From: a virus
Virus record (IMG/VR): IMGVR_UViG_3300028553_000074
Span: 1-39,122 of that record
Length of the DNA stretch: 39,122 nt
Direction: 5' to 3' (one strand)
Under the pieces are notes generated by a model. The model searched no databases. It saw only the letters and a list, made by a program, of their open reading frames with translations, and had not been told where the DNA came from. Below, piece by piece: positions 2,535 to 19,733 of the stretch. The translations under genes were made by a program, and so were the position numbers. How positions within the stretch are numbered: position 1 is the stretch's first letter; each line of letters begins with the position of its first letter.

Positions 2535-3386
2535 TTAACGTGCTGGTCTACGAGCAGGTCTACGTGACTCTGCTACTGGACTCTTGGTGCCCGATGCTCC
2601 GTCTTTTGAGACAGGCTTTGGAGTCTTGTCTAGATCGAGGCCGCGATGCCCTGGTGCATTCTTGAACTTGCCTGCACCTGGAAGATTGCCTTCTCCCTTT
2701 GAATATGCATTGCTCGGAGCCTTCGGACCATTTGGAGCAGATTCAGTGTTGCCTGCAAATCTTACTGGCTTGCTTGCCATTCCTGCTTGACCTGCGTTAG
2801 CTGCCGAACCTACTGCACTTTTATTTTGTACACCGTTGTCACCGTGAGTTACAGAAACTTTCTGAAGCTGTACAGCTTCCATCATTGCTTCTTCGTCATC
2901 TTCTTCGTCATCGCCACCGAAGTCTTCATCACCGGCGCCCATCATTGCTTCATCGTCGCCTTCGTCACCGAAGTCGCCGCCGCCCATGATTTCTTCAAAC
3001 TCAGCCATCAATTGGTCAAGCTTGTCTTCGATGCGGATTACTGCATCTTCAACTTCTTCGTGTTCATAATCTTCGCCTTCGTCATTGTCCATTTCCATGT
3101 CATGAGTAAGGTCTTGTCCTGCTTCTTCAGCGTCATCATCAAAGTCAATGTCAGCTTCGTCATCGTCTTCCATAACGCCTGATTCTTCAGCATTGATTTC
3201 GTCAAGTAGATCACCTGTTTGGCCGCCCATATTTTCTTCCATAGAATCGTCCATGTCGTCGGCCATAATTGACTCGAAGATTTCACGAGACTTTTCAACG
3301 ACGATTTCGTGGAATAGTTCACGGGCCTGATCTACGTCCTCATTGATGATGAGATCGTGTAGTTGCGAAAATTTTCTAATATCCAT
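2535..3386 (-). CDS. acidic prohead core / head assembly protein (gp67/gp68 position)
   Basis: A 283-residue protein of strikingly uneven composition. Residues 1-45 form an ordinary helical domain. Residues about 45-170 are extremely acidic (runs such as DDDEADIDFDDD and GGDDEEDDEEAMM), interrupted by a short helical segment VEDAVIRIEDKLDQLMAEF. The last 110 residues are Gly/Asn/Ala/Lys-rich and end in a basic tail RRPARRPAR. The polar acidic and basic split suits a core protein that binds capsid or DNA and is degraded on maturation. Position between portal and protease equals T4 genes 67/68, but no direct sequence match to them can be claimed. AGGAG lies 10 bases before the ATG. Confidence 0.7.
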   Translation of the reverse strand: MDIRKFSQLHDLIINEDVDQARELFHEIVVEKSREIFESIMADDMDDSMEENMGGQTGDLLDEINAEESGVMEDDDEADIDFDDDAEEAGQDLTHDMEMDNDEGEDYEHEEVEDAVIRIEDKLDQLMAEFEEIMGGGDFGDEGDDEAMMGAGDEDFGGDDEEDDEEAMMEAVQLQKVSVTHGDNGVQNKSAVGSAANAGQAGMASKPVRFAGNTESAPNGPKAPSNAYSKGEGNLPGAGKFKNAPGHRGLDLDKTPKPVSKDGASGTKSPVAESRRPARRPAR

Positions 3387-5774: not shown

Positions 5775-8700
5775 TCAAAGCACCTGTTTCAACAACTTCT
5801 TCTGAACTTGATCAGTGCTTTCTATCTTGTTGACTACACTATCAAACTTCGCAGACAATGCATAAATCATTTCTTTGCTGATTCCGACTGTTTTTTTAGG
5901 AATACCAGTAGTAGAAGTTGGTTTAGGAACAGCCTTGACACTCTTACGTTGCAAGTCTTTTGCTACAGCCTCTGCGCTGGTTGAAGCTAGTTTAGAAAGA
6001 ATTGAGTTGGAGTCGATTGGAATTATTAATTCAGTGCCGTGCAGTTCGATCGGGTATCCGGTTGAAGGACCTGACATTATTCCACCGTCTCTTGCCTGCA
6101 AGCTTCTCACAAAATCACTTCTGGATGTTAAACTATTGTTGCTGCCGACACCTGCATAGTAACTTCTACCATTTGGCATCGGCAAACTTGCCCACTCTTT
6201 TGCAAGATTATTTGCATATTGATCTACACCGAGTCTGCCGGATCGGAATCTCTCTCTGCCGCGCACATTCATCAGGTAAACCGCTGCCTTATCCTGCGTG
6301 GTTTCACTAAATTGATCATTGGGATTTACTGTTCCGGATCTGACTATGCCACCGAGAGTTCCTTTGATAATCTGATATTTTCCAAGAGCAGTTGATTCAT
6401 GTCCGTTATCCCTCATTGTATCTTGATAAGCCATTACCTGACCGACAGTCATACTGGTTAACGGAGGATCATTTTTTACCCTTCCGCCGACTAGCTTGTT
6501 ATAGTTGTTTCCTGATTCTATCCTACCTATAAAATTGAGAGCCGTGCTATCTGGACCGGGTCTAGTGAATAGACCCCTAGCAAAATCTCCTACTGCCGTA
6601 CCGACTTGCGTGACAAGTTCTCTGCCGCTATCTACTGTTCTTGCTACGGTTCTTGCTACAGGTTCTCTTAAGTTGCTAACTAAATTATTAAACCATCCTC
6701 CGCCACTGCCGCCTGAAAGCACTCCCATAGCCTTAGAGAAATTCAAGAATGCTTGTGAGTTTTCGGCCGCTTTTGGACCAACGTTTATAGCAGCAAAATT
6801 TTCGAAACTTTTGATTGGCCCATCCATCCCAAACAACATAGATAGCTTAGCTCCTGCAATTATACTAACTGCCTCTCTCAACCCCACGCCGCCTTTATAT
6901 GCTGCCATTGCACGAGAGAATTCTACAAACCCAGTTGCGTTGATACTAGTTTGTTTTGGATCAATCTTTAATTTCGAGAACTCTACGACTTGTTTTTCCG
7001 GTGGATTTGTGTTGAAGAAACTAACGGTTGCTTGTGCAAGTGAAGATGTTATTACGCTTAGTCCGTCTCCGTACCCGCTATAAGAAGCCATTGCACGAGA
7101 AAATTCTACAAATGAGTCTGAATTAATCTTTACTTTTGCCGGATCAACCTGTAACTGTGAGAACTTTTCTAAGTCTTTGTAAGGAGGGGTAGCACCAAAC
7201 AGCTTACCAATACCATCGTAATAACTTCGCATTGCGTCGGCGATTCCTGCTCCTGCTCCCAAAGCTGCCACTGCTGCCATAGCCTTAGCATATGCCATCA
7301 GAGATGCACCGTTGTCTTCAATTTTCTTTCTATCGAGGTTAACTGCTTGTAGTCGGAACAGCATTTCAGATGCTTGAGTTAGAGGGTCTTTGTCACCGGT
7401 GAAAAATCTTATGATAGTACCAAACGCTTGAGCCATTGTTCCCGCGCCCATCGCCAGAATGCCGATACCTAGCCCTGCCATACCTAGCCCTGCCTGTTGT
7501 AGATTTTTACCATCAAGATCATTAAATGCTTTTAGACCATTCGCTAGAGACGGAAGTGCTTTTCCGATGACTGCGACTGCACCTGCTATACCTGCACCGA
7601 AAGAAGCAATTGCAGTTGCTAATGCAGCCGCACCTAAGATAACCTGCGGGCCAGCTTTACCCGCATTTGACAACGCACTAGCGACAGATTGCAATGACGC
7701 ACCGAATCCTCCAGGTTTACCAACTTGTGCTGGGCCTCCTCCAGTAAGTTTAGCAATCCTTGCGCTTCTGGCTCCGCCTCTTAGAGGTCTACCGTTTTTA
7801 TCTAATAGTTGATCTTCTGCGATTTCTGCTACACTTGCGGCTGCTCCTGCGGCTGCTCCCCCGCGACCTAACAAGGCTTGTAGGCCTTTAGCTGCTACTA
7901 TAGTACCTAGTGCGATTGCTGCTGCTGACACCGCACCCATCAGTAATAAATTTTTGTTGAGAAATTTATCAATGAATGCTTTAATTGAGTCCGGTCCTTC
8001 AAGCAGGGCCGATTGTACATCAAGCAGGGCGTTTTGCACCTTACCTTGTACCTCACGCTCAACCGAGCGAGCCGTTTCAACGCTATTGGCTAGCGTGTCT
8101 GTATCTTCTTCGCTTTTAGCAGTAGCTTCGGCTAAGATTCTTGCAAAATCTTTTGATACGTCTATCCCTTGACGCCTCATCATAGCGCCCACTACTTGTT
8201 CTTCAGCTCCTACCTTTTTACCGAATTCGGATCCTAGCACCTCAAAAGCTACACTAAACGCTTCTGCATTTGCAGATATAGCACTATCTAGTTTTTCAGA
8301 GTACGCTAATAAGTCTGCTTGTGCGTTAGCTGATGTCTTCAATCCTTGAGTGAAGGATAGAGGATCAGATCCTCCCCTCATTTGTAGCATTGCTAAACCG
8401 GAAGTGAGCGAATCATAGTATCCAGTACGCATTACCCTTGCCATCTGGTTTGCTTTGTCTGGGCCATACAACGCAGTATATGTCTCAATCATTTTCTTGC
8501 GGTTGTCTTGTTCAAGCTTTAATGCAGCAGCCTCGCTGTGCCGACCCTCGTCCTGTAGCTTTCGTATTTTGGCATTTTCAGCCATAGTTGCAACCTGTTC
8601 TTCAAACACCAGTTGAACTTGATTTATTTCTTCTTGCAACGCATCAGCAGATTTACCAGTAAGAGATGACAACACCGTCATGTTCTTCGCATAAACAAGC

Positions 8701-9524
8701 GATTCTTTTTGAATTTGTTCTATTGACTTAGATTGATTTACATAAGCATTACCTGAAATAGCTTGAGTTTCTACATACTTTGCTTGCAGATGCAGCAATG
8801 CATCTTGGTTAATACCCATTCTACCAAATTCTCGACGAACATTGTCACTTACAGCCGCTATCTTCATGAATTTGACAGCACCTTCACCGGCATAACCGCC
8901 TAATCCTATCATCTTTCCACCGAGATTTTCCATCTCGCGGCCCAGCGTTGCCATATTATCAAGCGAAAATCTAGCATTTGCTGCTAATTTACCAATTTCT
9001 GTCATTGTTATCGGAATGATTCCGGATGTTTTTGTAAAATTATCTCTAATTCCAACAACACCGTCTGTGACCTTCAGTAGTTCGTTAACTACTTTACCAA
9101 ATACACTAAGGATTCCGCCCGCCGCCGTCCCCAAAAAACCAAAATTTTGACCAATGTTATAGGCACCGGTTCCTAAAGTATCTATAACATTACTATATTT
9201 GACCAAACCTTCTTGACTACTTAATACTGCGTTTTTAAACCCCATAAGCGCACTAACTCCGGTTCCAAACGCTTCTTTATAAATTTGAGATTTTTCGTTG
9301 ACAATAGACGCAGCTTTTGTGTTGGCTTCAGCAAATCTATCAATCACATTGTTGTTTTCTTTTTCTGCTTGAGTATTAGCAGTTTGAGCTTGTGTTCCGT
9401 TTTTTAGTGCAGGTATAGTATCGGCTAATGATTTGACCGTACCTCCCAACAAGGAAGTTTGCTGAGAAAGCAGCATACTAAGTTCACGCATTGCAGCTTG
9501 AATTTCTTGTTGTTCCGGATCCAT
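5775..9524 (-). CDS. tape-measure-like giant virion protein with lysozyme/transglycosylase-like domain
   Basis: A 1249-residue protein, paralogous to the neighbouring upstream gene. Residues about 1-480 are helical and align with the paralogue (for example ARFSLD, LGGYAGEGAVKFMK, RR.FGRMGI.Q). Hydrophobic Gly/Ala segments follow (about 515-560 and 640-720). Four imperfect repeats of about 70 residues around FVEFSRAMA lie at about 735-940. A cell-wall hydrolase-like domain spans about 995-1125: FIGRIESGNNYN with E as probable catalytic acid, then ALGKYQIIKGTLGG, TTQDKAAVYLM, LAKEWASLP and GRSYYAG. A GG..SGPSTGYP...LHGTELIIPI motif, common at tape-measure C-termini, follows, then a final helix. 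It begins 5 bases after its paralogue's stop, without a Shine-Dalgarno, so it is probably coupled. It could be an internal head protein instead, but the motif favours a tail role. Confidence 0.72.
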   Translation of the reverse strand: MDPEQQEIQAAMRELSMLLSQQTSLLGGTVKSLADTIPALKNGTQAQTANTQAEKENNNVIDRFAEANTKAASIVNEKSQIYKEAFGTGVSALMGFKNAVLSSQEGLVKYSNVIDTLGTGAYNIGQNFGFLGTAAGGILSVFGKVVNELLKVTDGVVGIRDNFTKTSGIIPITMTEIGKLAANARFSLDNMATLGREMENLGGKMIGLGGYAGEGAVKFMKIAAVSDNVRREFGRMGINQDALLHLQAKYVETQAISGNAYVNQSKSIEQIQKESLVYAKNMTVLSSLTGKSADALQEEINQVQLVFEEQVATMAENAKIRKLQDEGRHSEAAALKLEQDNRKKMIETYTALYGPDKANQMARVMRTGYYDSLTSGLAMLQMRGGSDPLSFTQGLKTSANAQADLLAYSEKLDSAISANAEAFSVAFEVLGSEFGKKVGAEEQVVGAMMRRQGIDVSKDFARILAEATAKSEEDTDTLANSVETARSVEREVQGKVQNALLDVQSALLEGPDSIKAFIDKFLNKNLLLMGAVSAAAIALGTIVAAKGLQALLGRGGAAAGAAASVAEIAEDQLLDKNGRPLRGGARSARIAKLTGGGPAQVGKPGGFGASLQSVASALSNAGKAGPQVILGAAALATAIASFGAGIAGAVAVIGKALPSLANGLKAFNDLDGKNLQQAGLGMAGLGIGILAMGAGTMAQAFGTIIRFFTGDKDPLTQASEMLFRLQAVNLDRKKIEDNGASLMAYAKAMAAVAALGAGAGIADAMRSYYDGIGKLFGATPPYKDLEKFSQLQVDPAKVKINSDSFVEFSRAMASYSGYGDGLSVITSSLAQATVSFFNTNPPEKQVVEFSKLKIDPKQTSINATGFVEFSRAMAAYKGGVGLREAVSIIAGAKLSMLFGMDGPIKSFENFAAINVGPKAAENSQAFLNFSKAMGVLSGGSGGGWFNNLVSNLREPVARTVARTVDSGRELVTQVGTAVGDFARGLFTRPGPDSTALNFIGRIESGNNYNKLVGGRVKNDPPLTSMTVGQVMAYQDTMRDNGHESTALGKYQIIKGTLGGIVRSGTVNPNDQFSETTQDKAAVYLMNVRGRERFRSGRLGVDQYANNLAKEWASLPMPNGRSYYAGVGSNNSLTSRSDFVRSLQARDGGIMSGPSTGYPIELHGTELIIPIDSNSILSKLASTSAEAVAKDLQRKSVKAVPKPTSTTGIPKKTVGISKEMIYALSAKFDSVVNKIESTDQVQKKLLKQVL

Positions 9525-9529
9525 CTACG

Positions 9530-12500
9530 TTACACCATTGAATGTCTAAGTATTTTAGATTGTGTACTATAACTGCTATCTAGCGCATTAAGCACGTTAT
9601 CTAATTTGTGTTGAATCATGTTATACAATTCTAAATTCATTGCACCTTGATCTTCTGCGGCGTAGTTATCAGTAGCAGAAGATGTAGAAGACGTAGACGA
9701 TGCCGCCGCCGGATTGAGTGATTCTGAACCAGTTTTAGCCAATTTCATCAACAACGAATCAAGTTTAAGTGGGCTAATCTTTTTGCCCTTATCAGAATCT
9801 GAAGGGAAACTTGCACCAGGGCCATCAAAAACGCCACCGTTTTCTGCTCGTTGCAGGCCTCCGGCGCGCAATAGATTAGAAATTGTTTTACCTTCATCAG
9901 GGTGTTTATGGCTGCTTGTTTCGCCGTGACCATAAACAGCACTAATGCCATATTTTCTCATTATTTGTTGGCTCAACTGAACTGCTGTTTGTTTTTGTGT
10001 TCTAGTTATGTCTTTGTCGTCTTTTGCTATTAGTGAGACACCTACTGTATTTCTATTACCTAAGTTTGGTTTTTTATCAGTTTTACCGGCATGCCATGTT
10101 ATTTGACTATCATCGACATAATTGACTACTGTACCATCTCTATCAACAAGATAATGATATCCTAATTTTCTTGCCCTTAGTGTATCAATCGCAGCTTGTA
10201 ACCCGCGGCCGCCTGTGTGGTGAACTATTAGTCCTTCTGTCTTTCTGCGAAGGCCACGAGCGCTACCTTCGCCAGCAGCACCTCCGGAAACCACCGCCCC
10301 AGCACCTTCGGATTGCCCGCCGCCACCGCCGCTAGCAGCACCACCGCTCGGGGTGTCCATGTCGCCGCCTTCACTAGGAGCGGCACCGCTGCCACCGCCA
10401 GAAGCACCTCCACCGCCAGAAGCACCTCCACCAGAAGCACCTCCACCTTCACCACCTCCTCCGCCACCGCCAGAAGCACCTCCGCCAGAAGCACCTCCGC
10501 CGGCCGGTGCAGCAGCACCAGGAGCCGTAGCGCCCCCATTCCTAAGCAGGTTTGCCGCTGTTGCATAGTTGAAGAATGCTTCTGAATTGTCTTTAGCTTT
10601 AGGACCAAAATCTCTTTGAGCAAATTTAGCAAATGCTTCGATTGGTCCATCTTCACCAAATATTTTATTGAGACCAGCACCAGCAAGGGCGCTGATGGTC
10701 GCCATTAAACCGGGGCCACCTCTATATTCAGCCATAGCATTAGCAAACGCGACAAATGATTTAGAATTTATTTCAGCTTTCTTTTCATTAATCGGAAGTC
10801 TAGAAAAATACGCAAACTGATCAACCGGTGGTCTCACACCAAAGAATTTTGCAGCAGCGTCACCCAATGTTGCAGTAAGTGCCCCGATGCCGTCACCGTA
10901 TCCTTCATAAGAAGACATAGCAGTACTAAATTCGACAAAAGCTTGTGCATTTATTTTGGTCTGTTTGTCATCAATCTTAAGTTCTGAAAATTCTACGAAT
11001 TTTTTTAGAGGTGGTGTTTTATCAAAGAAGCTCGCAACGCCGCCCGCAATAGCACCGCTGGCTTGTGCAACTGAACCAATTGCACTAATTGATGAAGCAG
11101 CGGCCATTGCTCTAGCGAATGATACCATTGCTTCTGAATTGTTTTTAACCTTTTCTTTATCAAAATCATAACCTTGAAGCTCGATTACCTGTGAAGATAC
11201 TTTTTTGATCGGGTCTTCACCGTCAACTAAGAAATTTATTACATTGCCGATAGCGCCAGCTACGTTTCCGGCACCCATTGCTAGAATTCCAGCGCCAAGC
11301 CCGGCCATTCCGAAACCTACTTGCAGGAGATTAGGTCCGTTTAATTTGTCAAATGCTTTCAACCCGTTTGCAAGAGAAGGCATTGACTTCCCTAAAATCC
11401 AAGTTGCACCCGCAAGGCCAGCACCAATCGCAGTGATAGCTGCACCAATTGCAGCGGAACCCGCTATAATATAAAAGGGAACAGGGGGTCTACCTGCTGC
11501 TGCTAGACCATTGACGATTCCCTGTAAGAATCCTCCCACCATGCCGCCTCCACCGGAAGCGGCTTTACTGAGATTTTGAATTCCTGCATCTGCGCCACTG
11601 ATTGCACCTGCTGCCTTTGCAGCACCTGCCGCACCACCTGCTGCCTTTGCGGCACCACCTGCTGCCTTTGCGGCACCACCTGCTGCCTTTGCGGCACCAC
11701 CTGCTGCCTTTGCGGCACCTGCCGCACCACCTGCCGCACCTGCGCCGCGATTAAACATTCCGCCTATACCGGGAATCTTAGACGCTAGACTACCCACAGC
11801 TATTGAACCTACTACTGCGGCTGCTCCAATAGCTGCGAACTTGAGTGCCTCCATTGAACCACGCAAAGGATCAATTGATTCTAAGAATGTTTGATACACA
11901 GATTTAGCCTCACGTTCCAATGATTTGACACCTTCGATAGCATCAGCAGTACGGTCTGTCCCTGCCTCACCCTTCTTCACCATGTCTGCTGTAATTTTTG
12001 CCCGATTCGCAGCCATAGCTCCGGGGCCGCCGCGTAGCGTTAGTCCAGTAATATACTCATTGCCGAAGCCACCGAAGCCTCGCGTAAACTCCTCGCCACG
12101 TGCCTGGATTGTGACCTGATATGCCGGGTTTGTAACAACTCCTACAATCCGATCCTCAAGCATTTGAGATGCTCTCGCTAAACTTTCTTCACCACCATCA
12201 CTCTTTTTGAAATCCTTGACAATGTCCGACATGCCTATGACAGACGACCCTGCTGTAGCTCCACTATAACCGCCCAAACGATATACTTTACCAGCAGTGC
12301 TTGCCTGCTCTTTGTCTCCTGTATCATATATTGCCTGAATGAAAGCTTGACGTTTTTTCTGTTCGTCTTCTATTCTTTGCGCTTCTTCTTGCGCCGCAGG
12401 GTCATTTGTCTTAGCCCTAAGTTCTGCTATTCGTTTATTTTCAGCAAGAGTTTTAACTTGTTCCTCATATTCAGATAGTGCTCCGACGCGTCCAGCTTGT

Positions 12501-13390
12501 AACTGATCAGCTTTTTTACCTGTCAAGGCGGACACTCTAATAAGATTTTCAGCATAAGCTAACGACTCTTGCTGCATCGTATTAACAGACTTACGTTGAT
12601 TGTGTAGAGCTTGACCAGAGACACTTTGTAACTCGACATATTTGGCTTGAGAATCAAGTAGTTGTTCTTGAGAGATACCCATTCTACCAAAACGTCTTCT
12701 TGTTTCGTCGGAAACATCAGCCAGCTTCATGAACTTGACTGCCCCTTCGCCGGCATAACCGCCCATACCGAGAAGACTTTGACCTAAACCATTAGTTGTC
12801 TTAGACAACTTCTTCATGTCATCAAGTGAGAATCTTGCTTGCTTTGCTAGATTTCCTATCTCGGTCGTAGACACAGGAAGAATTCCTGCAGTCTCCGTAA
12901 AACTATCTCTGAAGTCTATAATGTTATCATTAAGGCCAAATATTTCTTTAGTTAATGCACCAAATGCACCAAGGGCAAAGCCTAAAACTTGCCCCAAAGG
13001 TCCAAAGTTCTTACCAGCTTCATATGCAGCAGTTCCTAAACCTTCGGCGGCGTTACCATATTTGGATAACCCTTTTTCAGCACTTAGTAACGCATCTTTA
13101 AAACTTTTTAGTGATTGTACGCTTGTGGCAGATGCTTTTGAAAAGTTAGCATTAGATTCTTGTACGGTCTGTGCGGCTTGGGTATGAGCTTTGGCTAGCG
13201 GATCAACGCTGCTTGTACCTCTTTTGATAGATTCAGACTTTTTCTTTTCTTCAACCGTGTTGTCTCGGATTGAACCGACTTGCTGGTTTACAGCATTTAC
13301 CATTCCTGCCATGGTTGAGCTAAGGCTCGACAGTTGATCATTAAATGATTTAATCGAATCTTGTAGCTCTCTAAATACTTCTGGGTCCAT
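9530..13390 (-). CDS. tape-measure-like giant virion protein with N-acetylmuramoyl-L-alanine amidase domain
   Basis: A 1286-residue protein that resembles its downstream neighbour over most of its length. It has the same helical N-terminal half (FSLDDM, LGMGGYAGEGAVKFMK, RRRFGRMGIS) and the same hydrophobic block (SLANGLKAFDKLNGPNL, GMAGLGAGILAMGAGN). It also has four FVEFSTAMS-type repeats at about 745-945. A Gly/Ala/Lys repeat tract (about 550-590) and a long Gly/Ser linker (about 950-1040) are specific to it. Residues about 1050-1177 form an Amidase_2/PGRP-type zinc amidase: LIVHHTGG, HYLVDRDGTV, ITWHAGK, NTVGVSLI and GHGETSSHKHPDEGK hold the expected histidines. The domain would cut the amide bond between MurNAc and L-Ala. 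A GGVFDGPGASFP motif follows. The GGAA before the ATG is a weak ribosome site. Confidence 0.75.
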   Translation of the reverse strand: MDPEVFRELQDSIKSFNDQLSSLSSTMAGMVNAVNQQVGSIRDNTVEEKKKSESIKRGTSSVDPLAKAHTQAAQTVQESNANFSKASATSVQSLKSFKDALLSAEKGLSKYGNAAEGLGTAAYEAGKNFGPLGQVLGFALGAFGALTKEIFGLNDNIIDFRDSFTETAGILPVSTTEIGNLAKQARFSLDDMKKLSKTTNGLGQSLLGMGGYAGEGAVKFMKLADVSDETRRRFGRMGISQEQLLDSQAKYVELQSVSGQALHNQRKSVNTMQQESLAYAENLIRVSALTGKKADQLQAGRVGALSEYEEQVKTLAENKRIAELRAKTNDPAAQEEAQRIEDEQKKRQAFIQAIYDTGDKEQASTAGKVYRLGGYSGATAGSSVIGMSDIVKDFKKSDGGEESLARASQMLEDRIVGVVTNPAYQVTIQARGEEFTRGFGGFGNEYITGLTLRGGPGAMAANRAKITADMVKKGEAGTDRTADAIEGVKSLEREAKSVYQTFLESIDPLRGSMEALKFAAIGAAAVVGSIAVGSLASKIPGIGGMFNRGAGAAGGAAGAAKAAGGAAKAAGGAAKAAGGAAKAAGGAAGAAKAAGAISGADAGIQNLSKAASGGGGMVGGFLQGIVNGLAAAGRPPVPFYIIAGSAAIGAAITAIGAGLAGATWILGKSMPSLANGLKAFDKLNGPNLLQVGFGMAGLGAGILAMGAGNVAGAIGNVINFLVDGEDPIKKVSSQVIELQGYDFDKEKVKNNSEAMVSFARAMAAASSISAIGSVAQASGAIAGGVASFFDKTPPLKKFVEFSELKIDDKQTKINAQAFVEFSTAMSSYEGYGDGIGALTATLGDAAAKFFGVRPPVDQFAYFSRLPINEKKAEINSKSFVAFANAMAEYRGGPGLMATISALAGAGLNKIFGEDGPIEAFAKFAQRDFGPKAKDNSEAFFNYATAANLLRNGGATAPGAAAPAGGGASGGGASGGGGGGGEGGGASGGGASGGGGASGGGSGAAPSEGGDMDTPSGGAASGGGGGQSEGAGAVVSGGAAGEGSARGLRRKTEGLIVHHTGGRGLQAAIDTLRARKLGYHYLVDRDGTVVNYVDDSQITWHAGKTDKKPNLGNRNTVGVSLIAKDDKDITRTQKQTAVQLSQQIMRKYGISAVYGHGETSSHKHPDEGKTISNLLRAGGLQRAENGGVFDGPGASFPSDSDKGKKISPLKLDSLLMKLAKTGSESLNPAAASSTSSTSSATDNYAAEDQGAMNLELYNMIQHKLDNVLNALDSSYSTQSKILRHSMV
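10391..10503. repeat. 18-base degenerate tandem repeat encoding Gly/Ala/Ser linker
   Basis: Imperfect copies of a unit like ccgccagaagcacctcca run through this stretch. On the minus strand they encode the (GGGAS)n-like linker in front of the amidase domain of the giant virion protein. The unit lengths keep the reading frame, so copy-number changes would lengthen or shorten the linker without breaking the gene. Confidence 0.75.
11641..11718. repeat. 21-base tandem repeat inside giant virion gene
   Basis: The unit ctgcctttgcggcaccacctg occurs as three perfect tandem copies (11641-11661, 11662-11682, 11683-11703), followed by a partial fourth copy and flanked by decayed copies. On the minus strand each unit encodes seven residues of the pattern GGAAKAA. 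The tract lies in the middle of the amidase-bearing protein. Being a multiple of three, it can expand or contract in frame. Confidence 0.9.
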
Positions 13391-13453: not shown

Positions 13454-13461
13454 TATAAATC
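13454..13461 (+). promoter_or_regulatory. candidate late promoter before gp26-like gene
   Basis: TATAAATC lies 27 bases before the ATG at 13489 and differs from the T4 late -10 octamer TATAAATA only in the last base. A second TAAATA core (ACTAAATAG, 13432-13440) lies just upstream. The 98-base space between divergent genes should hold promoters for both, but nothing clear is seen for the minus-strand gene. Confidence 0.45.
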
Positions 13462-13488: not shown

Positions 13489-14316
13489 ATGGACAACAAC
13501 CCACTAAAACAGTATTTCAGAAGACCATCTGTATATATGAAGCTACCATCAAATGGTCAGGGCTATCCGGATGGAGCACTGGACATGCCCGAAATCGGCG
13601 AGATTCCAGTATATCCGATGACTGCTATTGATGAAATCACTGCTCGTACACCGGATGCGTTGTTTAACGGAACTGCAATTGCAGACTTGATCACAAGTTG
13701 TGTCCCCAATATCAAGGACCCATGGGCAGTGCCTAATATTGACCTTGACGCTATTCTTATTGCTATAAAAGCAGCCTCATCTTCTTCAGGTGAGATGGAT
13801 CTTACGTCAAGCTGCCCAAACTGTGAGGAAACATCTACTTATAAAATAAACCTAGTAGGCATTCTTTCGTCAATCAGCAGTCCTGATTTCTCAGAAGAAC
13901 TCAGCGCAGGTGATCTTAAAATAAAATTAAAGTCCGTTAATTTTAAAGAAATCAACGCAGCATCAATGAAACAATTTGAATTCCAAAGAGCAGCTTCTCA
14001 GATTGATTCTATCGAAAACGAAGATGATCGCAGCAAACTGATGAAGGAGTCATTACAGAAAATCACCGATCTTACTATGGATTTGCTGTGCCAAGCAATT
14101 GAATATATTCAGACTCCTACAATCAAAGTAGATCAGAAGGATTTTATTCTTGATTTCCTAAGACACTGTGACCGCAATGTTTATGTTACTATCCGAGATC
14201 GTAGTTCGGAACTACGTCAAGCTAGTGAGATTAAACCAATGAAGATCACTTGCGGAAGTTGCGAGCATGAATACGATCAGACAATCACACTGAACCCAAC
14301 GGATTTTTTCGACTAA
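13489..14316 (+). CDS. 26: baseplate hub protein, gp26 type, with zinc-ribbon cysteines
   Basis: A 275-residue protein of the T4 gp26-type baseplate family. The N-terminus has the family hallmarks: RRPSVYMKLPSNGQGY, then IPVYPMTAIDEI and RTPDALFNGTAI, followed by CVPNI.DPW. Two CxxC pairs, SCPNC (C109, C112) and TCGSC (C255, C258), probably form one split zinc site. gp26 helps assemble the central hub of the baseplate. T4 gp26 is shorter (208 residues). AGAGGA about 6 bases before the ATG is a good ribosome site. The last codons contain a T TTT TTC slippery heptamer, and a gp51-like frame follows in the -1 frame, so a longer fusion product may be made. Confidence 0.85.
   Translation: MDNNPLKQYFRRPSVYMKLPSNGQGYPDGALDMPEIGEIPVYPMTAIDEITARTPDALFNGTAIADLITSCVPNIKDPWAVPNIDLDAILIAIKAASSSSGEMDLTSSCPNCEETSTYKINLVGILSSISSPDFSEELSAGDLKIKLKSVNFKEINAASMKQFEFQRAASQIDSIENEDDRSKLMKESLQKITDLTMDLLCQAIEYIQTPTIKVDQKDFILDFLRHCDRNVYVTIRDRSSELRQASEIKPMKITCGSCEHEYDQTITLNPTDFFD
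14304..14310 (+). promoter_or_regulatory. candidate -1 ribosomal frameshift site (T TTT TTC)
   Basis: The heptamer lies in codons 272-274 of the gp26-like gene, two codons before its stop, with zero-frame codons TTT and TTC. It fits the X XXY YYZ rule for tandem -1 slippage exactly. After slippage, translation enters a frame open for 76 more codons. A weak hairpin (around 14322-14340) lies downstream, and no clear Shine-Dalgarno-like stimulator is seen upstream. Confidence 0.55.
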
Positions 14317-14540
14317 CGCTCCTCAGATCACCCCCTGAAGACATTAAGAAGCTGTTTGATAACTACGAAAACGATGTCTCAGGAATCAAAAAGTCAGCCC
14401 TAGAAATGGCATGGCACATGCGAGGGGGAGCGACGTACGAAGATATTCTGAATATGTCTTTTCAAGAAAGAGCAGACATAAACAAGATTATCGAAGAACA
14501 TCTTGAGATAACAAAGAAGTCACAACTTCCGTATTTCTAA
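14310..14540 (+). CDS. gp51-like baseplate hub assembly segment in -1 frame (no own start codon)
   Basis: After the heptamer, the -1 frame runs 76 residues: RLTLLRSPPEDIKKLFDNYE, then a helical part with EMAWHMRGGATYEDILNMSF, and a C-terminus ITKKSQLPYF. The pattern W-x-M-R-G-G followed by two helices and KKS.LP resembles the small hub-assembly protein encoded after gp26 in T4-like phages (gp51). No ATG, GTG or TTG lies before the conserved part. The first ATG (14406) would cut the protein to 44 residues and remove a conserved-looking helix. This makes a frameshifted fusion with gp26 the simplest reading. A CTG or ATT start is the alternative. Confidence 0.65.
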   Translation, partial: RLTLLRSPPEDIKKLFDNYENDVSGIKKSALEMAWHMRGGATYEDILNMSFQERADINKIIEEHLEITKKSQLPYF

Positions 14541-14541
14541 T

Positions 14542-14575
14542 AGAGGGAACTATTCATTTAGTTCTCTCTTTTTTT
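14542..14575 (+). terminator. Rho-independent terminator after gp26/gp51 region
   Basis: Arms AGAGGGAACTA (14542-14552) and TAGTTCTCTCT (14559-14569) pair over 11 positions with one G-T wobble and a 6-base loop. A run of seven T follows. The hairpin begins just after the stop codon at 14538-14540. Confidence 0.9.
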
Positions 14576-15069
14576 GGCTTCTATCATAGCTCTCATTCAG
14601 AGTTGTCCTTCGGACAACTTATACCTTACTCACTTCGTTCGTTTCGGTATATCCTTTTTCATTCTCTTTAATGGTAATGTCTAAGATAACTTGTTGAAGA
14701 TACTTGCCGGTTCAGAATCCATGGTAGTGCTATGTAGCACTACCAATGGTCTAGGACATTGCCATGGCCCGTCACCCTTGCTGTCTATTCCCCGTCAACC
14801 TAGCTTTTGATGCTGATTGACGCTACCGGTTGCCCTGTAAAGTTTACTGGGACTGTAGTGAGGCTATCTTTCGATTCCTCGGCAACGCATGTTCTGTGTT
14901 CTCAAGACAGAGTACGACACAGACTCATTTAGGGTTCGCTTAACCTAACGAGGGCCCTATCGGTATTCCATAGATGTAAACACCTATGCATTTTTGAAGG
15001 AATGCACCTTCGGCTCCAGATTCCGTTCGCAGTATTCCATGCGTCCTCAAGGAGAGTCGAGCAACCCCG
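14576..15069. other. gene-free, hairpin-rich region; candidate large structured RNA
   Basis: No open frame of useful length exists on either strand here. The stretch is full of paired arms: AGTTGTCC/GGACAACT (14601-14619), TATACC/GGTATA (14620-14651), GGTAGTGCTA/TAGCACTACC (14723-14744), CGTCAA/TTGACG (14793-14822, with AGC/GCT inside). It continues with GTTGCC/GGCAAC (14829-14886, enclosing two smaller hairpins), CTGTGT/ACACAG (14894-14922), CATAG/CTATG (14969-14988) and TGCATT/AATGCA (14987-15006). The strand is undecided. A minus-strand reading gives a GAAA tetraloop at 14866-14875, while a U-rich hairpin at 15070-15104 would suit a plus-strand end. No known RNA family was recognised. Confidence 0.5.
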
Positions 15070-15104
15070 ACCAAACAGCTATGTAGGATTCTGTGGTTTT
15101 GTTT
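15070..15104 (+). terminator. weak terminator-like hairpin with U-rich tail
   Basis: ACCA-CAG (15070-15078, two-base bulge) pairs with CTG-TGGT (15091-15097), followed by TTTGTTT. It touches the stop codon of the minus-strand nuclease gene, so it would stop plus-strand transcripts from running into that gene. The long 12-base loop makes it weak. Confidence 0.35.
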
Positions 15105-15666
15105 AGGTTTTGAGCGTTAGTACGTTAGCTGTAGACGCGGTGTCAAGGTTTGTATTAGGTGAGCCTGAGTAAACTTTAAGAAGGTCTTTGTTGAGCTTGA
15201 AGAAGTGTTGAAATTCGATGATGATCCAGTCCCCGAACTTAGCGGAACTGTAGTAAATGAAGTTGTCTGTGACCCAAGTACACTTTGCTTGTACAGCAAC
15301 ATACTTGCCTTTACGATTAAACTTCATGAATAGCACGTTGCAATCATCAGTTTCTGCTACAGCCATCAGTTGGTCTAGCCAACTGTCGATTTGTTTGCAG
15401 TCCCCGGATAAAAGAAGATGAAAAGGGAAGTCTGCATATGACTTACATTCTGCGTTGAATTTAGTGAAAGTCACGCCCGGAACGATGTCGCCCTTGAAGC
15501 TACGAATCTGACCCTCATCCAAATACTGTTTGCGGGATTGATTCTTACCGCCAATGTATGCACCTGAGCCGGGAGCCCTGATAAAACTTTCGTCATATGT
15601 CTTTGACAAGAAGGTTGCAACTTCTCGTTCGAACGATGAGCCTTTGGCTTTGCTAGGTGATGTCAT
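15103..15666 (-). CDS. PD-(D/E)XK nuclease, Holliday-junction-resolvase-like
   Basis: A 187-residue protein with the layout of a small PD-(D/E)XK nuclease. KGSSFEREVATFL gives a conserved Glu (E13), RAPGSGAYIGG follows, then FKGDIV gives D60, and FNAECKSY gives the E73-x-K75 pair. These residues would bind the catalytic metal. The order Glu, Ser/Gly loop, GD, ExK is that of archaeal Hjc-type resolvases and related phage nucleases. It lies directly downstream of gp46/gp47 on the same strand and probably acts in recombination or branch removal before packaging. The ATG has no clear Shine-Dalgarno. The exact substrate cannot be told. Confidence 0.75.
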   Translation of the reverse strand: MTSPSKAKGSSFEREVATFLSKTYDESFIRAPGSGAYIGGKNQSRKQYLDEGQIRSFKGDIVPGVTFTKFNAECKSYADFPFHLLLSGDCKQIDSWLDQLMAVAETDDCNVLFMKFNRKGKYVAVQAKCTWVTDNFIYYSSAKFGDWIIIEFQHFFKLNKDLLKVYSGSPNTNLDTASTANVLTLKT

Positions 15667-18833: not shown

Positions 18834-19733
18834 TTAGGTAACCTTAACTTGTTTAGGTTTTACCTCACGCATTTGCCTCGTGAACGATGGGTTAAGACCA
18901 TTCATCTCAAGAATGTCATCGCGGATGTTTTGTGTTCGCTTTTCTGAATTTAGCACTCGGCAGAAGCTATTGGTGATAGCTGCTGTGTAGTATGCAAACG
19001 GATTAGAAGACTTTGCCTCATTGAATCGAAGGCCAACATAGGTCAACTGTAGAATAGCAGAGTTACGCATCTCGTCATTATATGTGTAGCCGCGCCAGTT
19101 GAATCTCATGGCATACTTCTCACAAAGCATCATGTACATACGAGCTAGTTTATTAGTGATGTTGCCGTGATCCTTAGAGAAATGACCATTCTCAATTCCA
19201 TCAACCCAATGCGACTTACCCACACACCTAAATGTGTTGGTTTCGTCTAACTTAAAGTGCTGGAAGGGAGGGAAGTTGACTCTAACGTGAACCATATCGT
19301 CAACTTCGGCCTTCGTGGTCTTGTCTTCTAAATCAGAAAAATCTTCCAACTCGTCATCTTCAAAAACGATGATGTCTTTGGCTGTTTTCTTCTTCGTAGT
19401 CTTACGAGGCTGCTTTTGAGCAACTGGGATATGGTCCCAAGTCATGACTCTGAAGATTAAATCTTCAGTTTTTACTGATTCTGGAAGAATCTTTTCTTCT
19501 GCCTGTAGTGAAAGCCAGACTGCTCTAGTTTGTTTAGCTGCTTGGATTTGTTCTGGCTTTATTGCAAAATCTAGACTAGTTTCTATGGGAGAATCGGGCA
19601 TGTCGATGATAAGATCATATCGATTGTATTCCGGTTCAGTGAAGTAACAGTACGAGTTCTTGCTCGCGTGGATTTCTTTAAGAATGTCTTTGTTATTTAG
19701 ATAATTAACAGGTCTCTTTGGTTTTGTTATCAC
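18834..19733 (-). CDS. 55: late transcription sigma factor, gp55 type, with long N-terminal extension
   Basis: Residues about 155-299 match the late sigma factor: VGKSHWVDGIENGHFSKDHG, NITNKLARMYMMLCEKYAM, WRGYTYNDEM and the strongly conserved KSSNPFAYYTAAITNSFCRVL. The protein directs host RNA polymerase to late promoters. T4 gp55 is 185 residues, this one 299. The extra N-terminal part (about 1-105, with YLNNKDILKEIHASKNSYCYF and YDLIIDMPDSP) looks like a separate folded module, joined by a Lys-rich then acidic linker (about 108-146). The start is GTG at 19733, with AAAGGA 6 bases before it. An ATG at 19735 overlaps but is followed at once by TGA. It heads the 55-47-46-nuclease run. Confidence 0.88.
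   Translation of the reverse strand: MITKPKRPVNYLNNKDILKEIHASKNSYCYFTEPEYNRYDLIIDMPDSPIETSLDFAIKPEQIQAAKQTRAVWLSLQAEEKILPESVKTEDLIFRVMTWDHIPVAQKQPRKTTKKKTAKDIIVFEDDELEDFSDLEDKTTKAEVDDMVHVRVNFPPFQHFKLDETNTFRCVGKSHWVDGIENGHFSKDHGNITNKLARMYMMLCEKYAMRFNWRGYTYNDEMRNSAILQLTYVGLRFNEAKSSNPFAYYTAAITNSFCRVLNSEKRTQNIRDDILEMNGLNPSFTRQMREVKPKQVKVT

Follow-up and report, generated by a model that had tools for sequence, protein, structure and literature searches.

A predicted programmed −1 ribosomal frameshift at the end of a gp26-like gene would give short and long tail assembly chaperones in a T4-related jumbo-type myovirus

The locus examined here raises the question of how a −1 reading frame that runs on past the stop codon of a gp26-like phage gene is expressed, and what the resulting proteins do. 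The window, that is, the whole stretch of DNA analyzed, is a metagenomic viral contig of 39,122 bases and carries a T4-type late region with portal, head protease, baseplate wedge and late sigma factor-like genes. The original prediction had proposed that a programmed −1 frameshift fuses gp26-like and gp51-like hub proteins at this place. The elements concerned are listed below.

13489 to 14316, + strand: gp26-like (PF12322) tail assembly chaperone or baseplate hub assembly protein of 275 aa, the predicted short form (ORF, Pfam and PHROG)
14304 to 14310, + strand: slippery heptamer T TTT TTC in the 0-frame phase X XXY YYZ (gaT TTT TTC), read from the sequence
14314 to 14316, + strand: 0-frame stop codon TAA, one sense codon past the heptamer, read from the sequence
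14310 to 14540, + strand: putative −1 extension, a short-gp51-like C-terminal domain, read CGA CTA ACG... after the slip, with its stop codon TAA at 14538 to 14540
13489 to 14540, + strand: predicted −1 frameshift product of 350 aa (274 + 76), deduced from the sequence elements above
Predicted junction peptide of the window's fusion: ITCGSCEHEYDQTITLNPTDFFR

The gp26-like protein matched the Pfam family PF12322 (T4_baseplate) with an E-value of 6.4e-17 and a score of 62.4 bits, above the cut-off of 24.5, and PHROG 150 with an E-value of 9e-18. Its gene ends in GAT TTT TTC GAC TAA; a perfect T TTT TTC, as originally claimed, is thus present in register and is followed by a single sense codon and the stop. 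TTTTTTC occurs only five times in the window on both strands together, and among the 44 in-frame X XXY YYZ heptamers of the 16 likely window genes, the one at the end of the gp26-like gene is the sole TTTTTTC. The −1 frame contains no stop between 14271 and the TAA at 14538 to 14540, and the 76 codons past the heptamer and the 350-residue fusion given in the original prediction were both confirmed. The length of this frame alone is unremarkable, longer open −1 frames being found past the stop in two other window genes. The two slipped F codons and the 76 codons together form a domain of 78 aa (the FF-domain), for which AlphaFold gave an all-helical model with a pLDDT of 86.6; the pLDDT of the gp26-like short form was 86.7. 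The conserved pattern of the −1 domain is FFRxxLL..PE.I..W.MRGG.SYED.LNMS..ER, and the conservation spans the junction. Pfam and PHROG scans of the −1 domain returned no named family, and a Foldseek search against the PDB gave no significant match for the short form or the −1 domain, an absence that says nothing about a difference in fold. In BFVD, most matches were to T4-like proteins of the hub or baseplate or to proteins without a name.

We are highly confident that one tail-assembly-chaperone gene of a T4-related jumbo-type myovirus makes up this locus and that programmed −1 ribosomal frameshifting is used to decode it. Most ribosomes would read the gp26-like frame to the stop at 14314 to 14316 and produce the 275-aa short form. 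A minority would slip back one base at T TTT TTC through tandem slippage of two Phe tRNAs, pass the 0-frame stop and add 76 residues, producing the 350-aa long form. If lambda gpG/gpGT is taken as the model, coating of the tape measure protein would fall to the short form, and the extra domain of the rare long form would recruit tail tube or hub components; the ratio of the two forms and these binding roles are modelled on lambda (PMC5009743). Both the slippage and the chaperone role are predicted from the sequence. Further features of the neighborhood are listed below.

9530 to 13390, − strand: large tape-measure-like protein with an Amidase_2 domain, divergent neighbor of the gp26-like gene
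13454 to 13461, + strand: TATAAATC, upstream of gp26, resembling the T4-type late promoter (TATAAATA) on a reading by eye only
14542 to 14569, + strand: intrinsic-terminator-like hairpin with a T run just past the −1 stop (one match found, with 1.3 expected by chance)
18834 to 19733: gene for a late sigma factor-like protein, encoded in the window

The divergent neighbor is called tape-measure-like on the basis of its size, its position and the annotation of the RaK2 protein at the matching position as similar to a tail tape measure protein, not of a family match. The window contains two tandem large tape-measure-like proteins on the − strand (5775 to 9524 and 9530 to 13390), which are 38% identical over 971 aa, with Amidase_2 in the second, whereas a single large gene occupies this place in several inspected jumbo relatives. 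Because the terminator-like hairpin comes after the −1 stop, the gp26-like frame and the −1 frame probably share one transcript. Between this hairpin and a gene on the − strand for a RusA-like Holliday junction resolvase (15103 to 15666; PHROG 244, 1.8e-19) lie about 530 nt without a likely gene (14570 to 15102), and an Rfam scan, which covered this interval, found nothing credible. An endonuclease VII or RusA-like gene is also located near gp26 in several jumbo relatives, where the window has its RusA-like gene.

It is conceivable that the frameshift is real and that its products are structural baseplate-hub proteins, as the original prediction had called them, instead of tail assembly chaperones. 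The database names of the families (PHROG 150, "baseplate hub"; PF12322, "base plate protein") and the genetic support for gp26 in the T4 hub noted in a review (PMC3004832) are in agreement with this view. However, T4 gp26 and gp51 are listed in the same review as hub assembly chaperones (PMC3004832). In addition, CBB_250, the gp26 homologue of phage CBB, was not found by text search in the CBB virion mass-spectrometry table, whereas its neighbor CBB_251 was represented there by 29 peptides, and short and long forms beside a tape-measure-like gene are the pattern of chaperones. We therefore consider a structural role unlikely, and the hub designation in the original prediction was probably incorrect. 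A G/GT arrangement is the simplest reading because it agrees with an abundant short form accompanied by a rare long one, with the T4 chaperone literature, with the tape-measure-like neighbor and with the failure to find CBB_250 in the virion table. Accordingly, the short and long forms would very probably be tail assembly chaperones, an assignment based on T4 homology and the literature.

Conservation of the heptamer in related phages had been named beforehand as a test of the frameshift. A tblastn search detected gp26 relatives in 61 phage records, all with less than 60% identity, and in Atu_ph07 and Phosso a homologous −1 domain lies in a frame with the same relation to gp26. Eighty IMG/VR contigs with relatives of the window gene (protein identity, 44 to 87%) were fetched, 79 of which reach the gp26 stop. 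The heptamer in phase and the −1 ORF were present in all 79 contigs with an intact gene end, and the ORF extended 74 codons past the stop, or 71 in two contigs, and reached the contig end in two. Both elements were also present in 16 of 16 inspected jumbo-phage relatives (Atu_ph07, Phosso, SCTP-2, CBB, PA5oct, PBECO4, Vibrio 2.275.O, XacN1, RaK2, XaC1, GAP32, BF, Munch, Hallingskeid, XbC2 and RAS14), most of which show 25 to 31% identity. In these, gp26 carries xxT TTT TTC (TTT as the last codon in XacN1 and RAS14) 1 to 11 codons before its stop, and the −1 ORF is 69 to 80 codons long. A cyanophage gp26 query gave another 80 contigs, and all 78 with an intact end have xxT TTT TT(C/A/G) there, with TTC in 74 and TTA or TTG in four. 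The heptamer was thus kept in all inspected lineages except that of Pseudomonas phage Cygsa01. In the cyanophage-type loci L187 to L190, the 3' end of the gp26-like gene carries U UUU UUA or U UUU UUG, which changes the amino acid and keeps the slip, and a strong hairpin was seen directly past the heptamer in L187, L189 and L190 when these were folded.

A second alternative is a conventional small gene in the −1 frame, independent of gp26, whose translation begins by reinitiation or translational coupling once the gp26 stop has been reached. An ATG is located shortly past the heptamer in Atu_ph07, Phosso, PBECO4 and many cyanophages, and the −1 ORF is annotated as a CDS of its own in many public records; a joined CDS was annotated in none of the approximately 20 records inspected. 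The distantly related Cygsa01 (L107, 2800 to 2982) appears to use such a gene: it has no heptamer, and the ATG of its C-domain overlaps the gp26 stop (TAATG), a third arrangement of the same two parts. On the other hand, no start codon precedes the conserved part in the window and in most jumbo-type relatives, and any ATG, GTG or TTG within the first 15 −1 codons was found at only 16 of 88 loci. As originally stated for the window, its −1 frame has no ATG, GTG or TTG before the conserved part; the first is the ATG at 14406, residue 35 of the 78-residue FF-domain, and a start there would cost 34 conserved residues. In about half of the contigs, a −1 frame stop (TGA) directly 5' of the six T limits entry into the −1 frame to approximately 10 nt before the gp26 stop. 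A separate gene leaves this upstream stop, the frozen codons of the heptamer (see below) and the residues conserved across the junction unexplained. The chance that it is the correct explanation therefore seems slim. Separate initiation was rejected for the window, which has no start codon for it; it is possible in some relatives, in which an ATG near the heptamer could allow the C-domain to be expressed by reinitiation as well. In S-SCSM1 (L104, approximately 3188 to 3210), which has an intact heptamer, the −1 frame is open for only 4 codons, and an apparent 11-nt insertion past the gp26 stop places the C-domain in the +1 frame. An error in sequencing, disruption of the gene or a different mode of decoding could account for this frame change.

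The programmed −1 frameshift was further examined at the codon level using 64 non-redundant gp26 genes with a median pairwise DNA identity of 58%. F273 is TTT in all 64 genes and F274 is TTC in 63, which makes them the most synonymously frozen codons in the gene; the next codon column reaches only 86%. The overall Phe usage in these genes is 63% TTT and 37% TTC. Across the lineages compared, the codon preceding the TTT always ends in T, although it encodes D, H, N, S, Y, A, T or R, and the variants TTC, TTT, TTA and TTG of the last codon all preserve X XXY YYZ. Judging from these patterns, it is the bases rather than the amino acids that are conserved at the heptamer. The Arg codon of the −1 frame alone could hold TTC, which likewise presupposes −1 translation through the site.

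RNA structure downstream of the heptamer was analyzed in the relatives and in the window.

14318 to 14352, + strand: position in the window of the stem-loop of its relatives, with the outer arms at 14318 to 14323 and 14347 to 14352
14334 to 14383, + strand: a different hairpin, lying further downstream, predicted from the window's own sequence (−14 kcal/mol; not significant, with a z of −1.4)

In the window's clade, the stem-loop starts 7 nt past the heptamer and consists of an outer stem (GCUUCU/AGAAGC), an inner stem of 7 bp and a 7-nt loop. Pairing in the stem was 77.9%, compared with 38.8 to 55.7% when the partner strand was slid, and 50 double-sided changes were counted. The covariation score of the stem was 0.208, against 0.154 in shuffled alignments, and none of 500 shuffles reached the observed value. 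The mean folding z of the 46 nt at +7 past the heptamer was −2.70 in the window's clade (n = 56) and −2.28 in cyanophages (n = 32), whereas the means at other offsets were between −0.8 and +0.4 in both groups. RNAalifold predicted no consensus pairs on an alignment of 53 sequences, and the support for the stem consists for this reason of the per-sequence folds, the slid controls and the pair counts. The window's own copy is degenerate, with one C-A mismatch in the outer stem, the inner stem lost and a z of about 0. The predicted stem-loop is therefore well supported for the relatives and not for the window, in which the efficiency of frameshifting may be low or may depend on another element because of this degeneration.

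Some genes make use of slippage by RNA polymerase, and such slippage on the run of six T at the junction could in principle generate mRNAs joining both frames. However, six T is short for efficient transcriptional slippage, the run is hardly ever longer in the relatives, and its codon phase is constant in every case. Furthermore, a covariation-supported structure 7 nt downstream fits ribosomal slippage instead. Transcriptional slippage is thus even less probable than a separate gene. Although the window is a metagenomic contig and long open −1 frames past stops occur in other window genes too, conservation rules out that the frame break is a pseudogene, an error of sequencing or an open frame arisen by chance: more than 150 contigs, and isolate genomes as well, carry the same break at this position, and the protein sequence is conserved in both frames. 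Programmed −1 frameshifting, in favor of which the conserved heptamer, the −1 ORF and the frozen codons argue, is by far the best explanation, as the original prediction had suggested.

How the locus relates to T4 was examined through the copy number of PF12322. T4 gp26 and T4 gp51 are both full-length PF12322 proteins encoded on opposite strands, and gp51 has about 48 extra residues forming an additional C-terminal domain. The family is present in two copies in T4 and RB43 (gp26 short, gp51 long) and in a single copy in 15 complete genomes outside Straboviridae, 14 of them with the heptamer and one, Cygsa01, without it. SCTP-2 gave no PF12322 match above the threshold, yet its homologue aligns by tblastn. 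A profile of the cyanophage −1 domain matched the C-terminus of T4 gp51 (19 bits) and RB43 gp51 (21 bits) and did not match T4 gp26; the −1 domain of the jumbo-type phages (the window's clade) matched the same place of T4 gp51 weakly. The name "gp51-like" in the original prediction therefore holds for the short cyanophage gp51 and does not hold for the whole of T4 gp51, of which the window's domain appears to correspond to the C-terminal end only.

According to the PRFect paper (PMC10885494), which cites Vladimirov et al. 2022, T4-like phages have one short gene and one long fusion gene and no frameshift. Chaperone genes of this kind in T4-like phages are named, and poly-T slippery sites mentioned, in two papers (PMC10885494, PMC12846349) that cite the same work (Vladimirov, Gautam & Davidson 2022, Virology 566:9). 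Together with the PF12322 matches and the −1 domain profile, these citations lead us to read T4 gp26 as the short chaperone and gp51 as the long one. The locus had been described as recalling lambda G/GT at a different gene pair; it looks instead like the G/GT equivalent itself, as T4 gp26 and gp51 both belong to PF12322. The deep branches of the gp26 tree are weak, and frameshift-type genes lie on both sides of the T4 sequences, which fits, without proving, the view that the frameshift is ancestral and that the two genes of T4 are derived. We tentatively propose, as one possible history, that a U UUU UUN −1 frameshift with a conserved stem-loop is a widespread and perhaps ancestral route to two PF12322 chaperones outside Straboviridae (jumbo phages, cyanophages and vibriophages), that T4 gp26/gp51 would have arisen later by duplication and in-frame fusion, and that the cyanophage "gp51" would not be an independent gene. 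It has been reported as a puzzle that cyanophage gp51 is without its first ~200 residues (PMC3037559); these would be missing because the short gp51 would be the frameshifted tail of gp26.

Both the mechanism and the role as chaperones are of kinds already known, and frameshifting in part of the PF12322 family may already have been reported by Vladimirov et al. 2022, a work represented here through the papers citing it. In the literature examined, with that work represented in the same way, we did not find how widely the site is spread over jumbo phage and cyanophage lineages, the freezing of its codons, the covariation of the stem-loop, the contrast between single-copy and two-copy genomes, or an explanation for the "reduced" cyanophage gp51. 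Under the present reading, a core tail gene would need to be reannotated in a great many phages, in which the small downstream gene, where annotated, would be the frameshifted tail of gp26. It would also link the two-gene solution of T4 to the one-gene solution of the lambda type, and the many natural variants of the U UUU UUC site and its covarying stem-loop are useful material for studies of bacterial −1 frameshifting.

Among known systems, lambda G/GT (Levin 1993; Xu 2004, 2013; as described in PMC5009743) shares with the window a short form and a −1-extended long form, a heptamer at the 3' end of the short gene and, as a probable parallel, a tape measure gene or, in the window, a tape-measure-like gene nearby. 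In the window, the long form is a prediction; the locus differs from lambda in the protein family (PF12322, 275 + 76 aa), in its T TTT TTC site and in a tape-measure-like gene that is divergent and not downstream. T4 gp26 and gp51 are homologous PF12322 proteins, gp26 resembling the short form and gp51 the fusion with the C-domain; being two separate genes on opposite strands, they need no frameshift. The gp26 and short "gp51 hub assembly catalyst" of Kyanoviridae (PMC3037559) have in common with the window and its relatives the heptamer, the −1 relation, the downstream structure (degenerate in the window itself) and a single PF12322 copy, whereas their C-domain is shorter (~62 codons) and only weakly similar, and an ATG is often located a few codons past the heptamer. 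Rak2-like and other jumbo phages (RaK2, PBECO4, CBB, PA5oct, Atu_ph07 and Phosso) share the heptamer and the −1 domain and, in most cases, the portal, tape-measure-like and gp26 genes as neighbors; they differ in showing 25 to 31% identity and in a stop 1 to 11 codons past the heptamer. In Vandenendeviridae and Andersonviridae, represented by phage Adele (PMC12846349), a poly-T −1 site likewise ends the short chaperone gene and is followed by a −1 ORF of more than 200 bp, but the motif is GTTTTT and the chaperone gene lies upstream of the tape measure gene.
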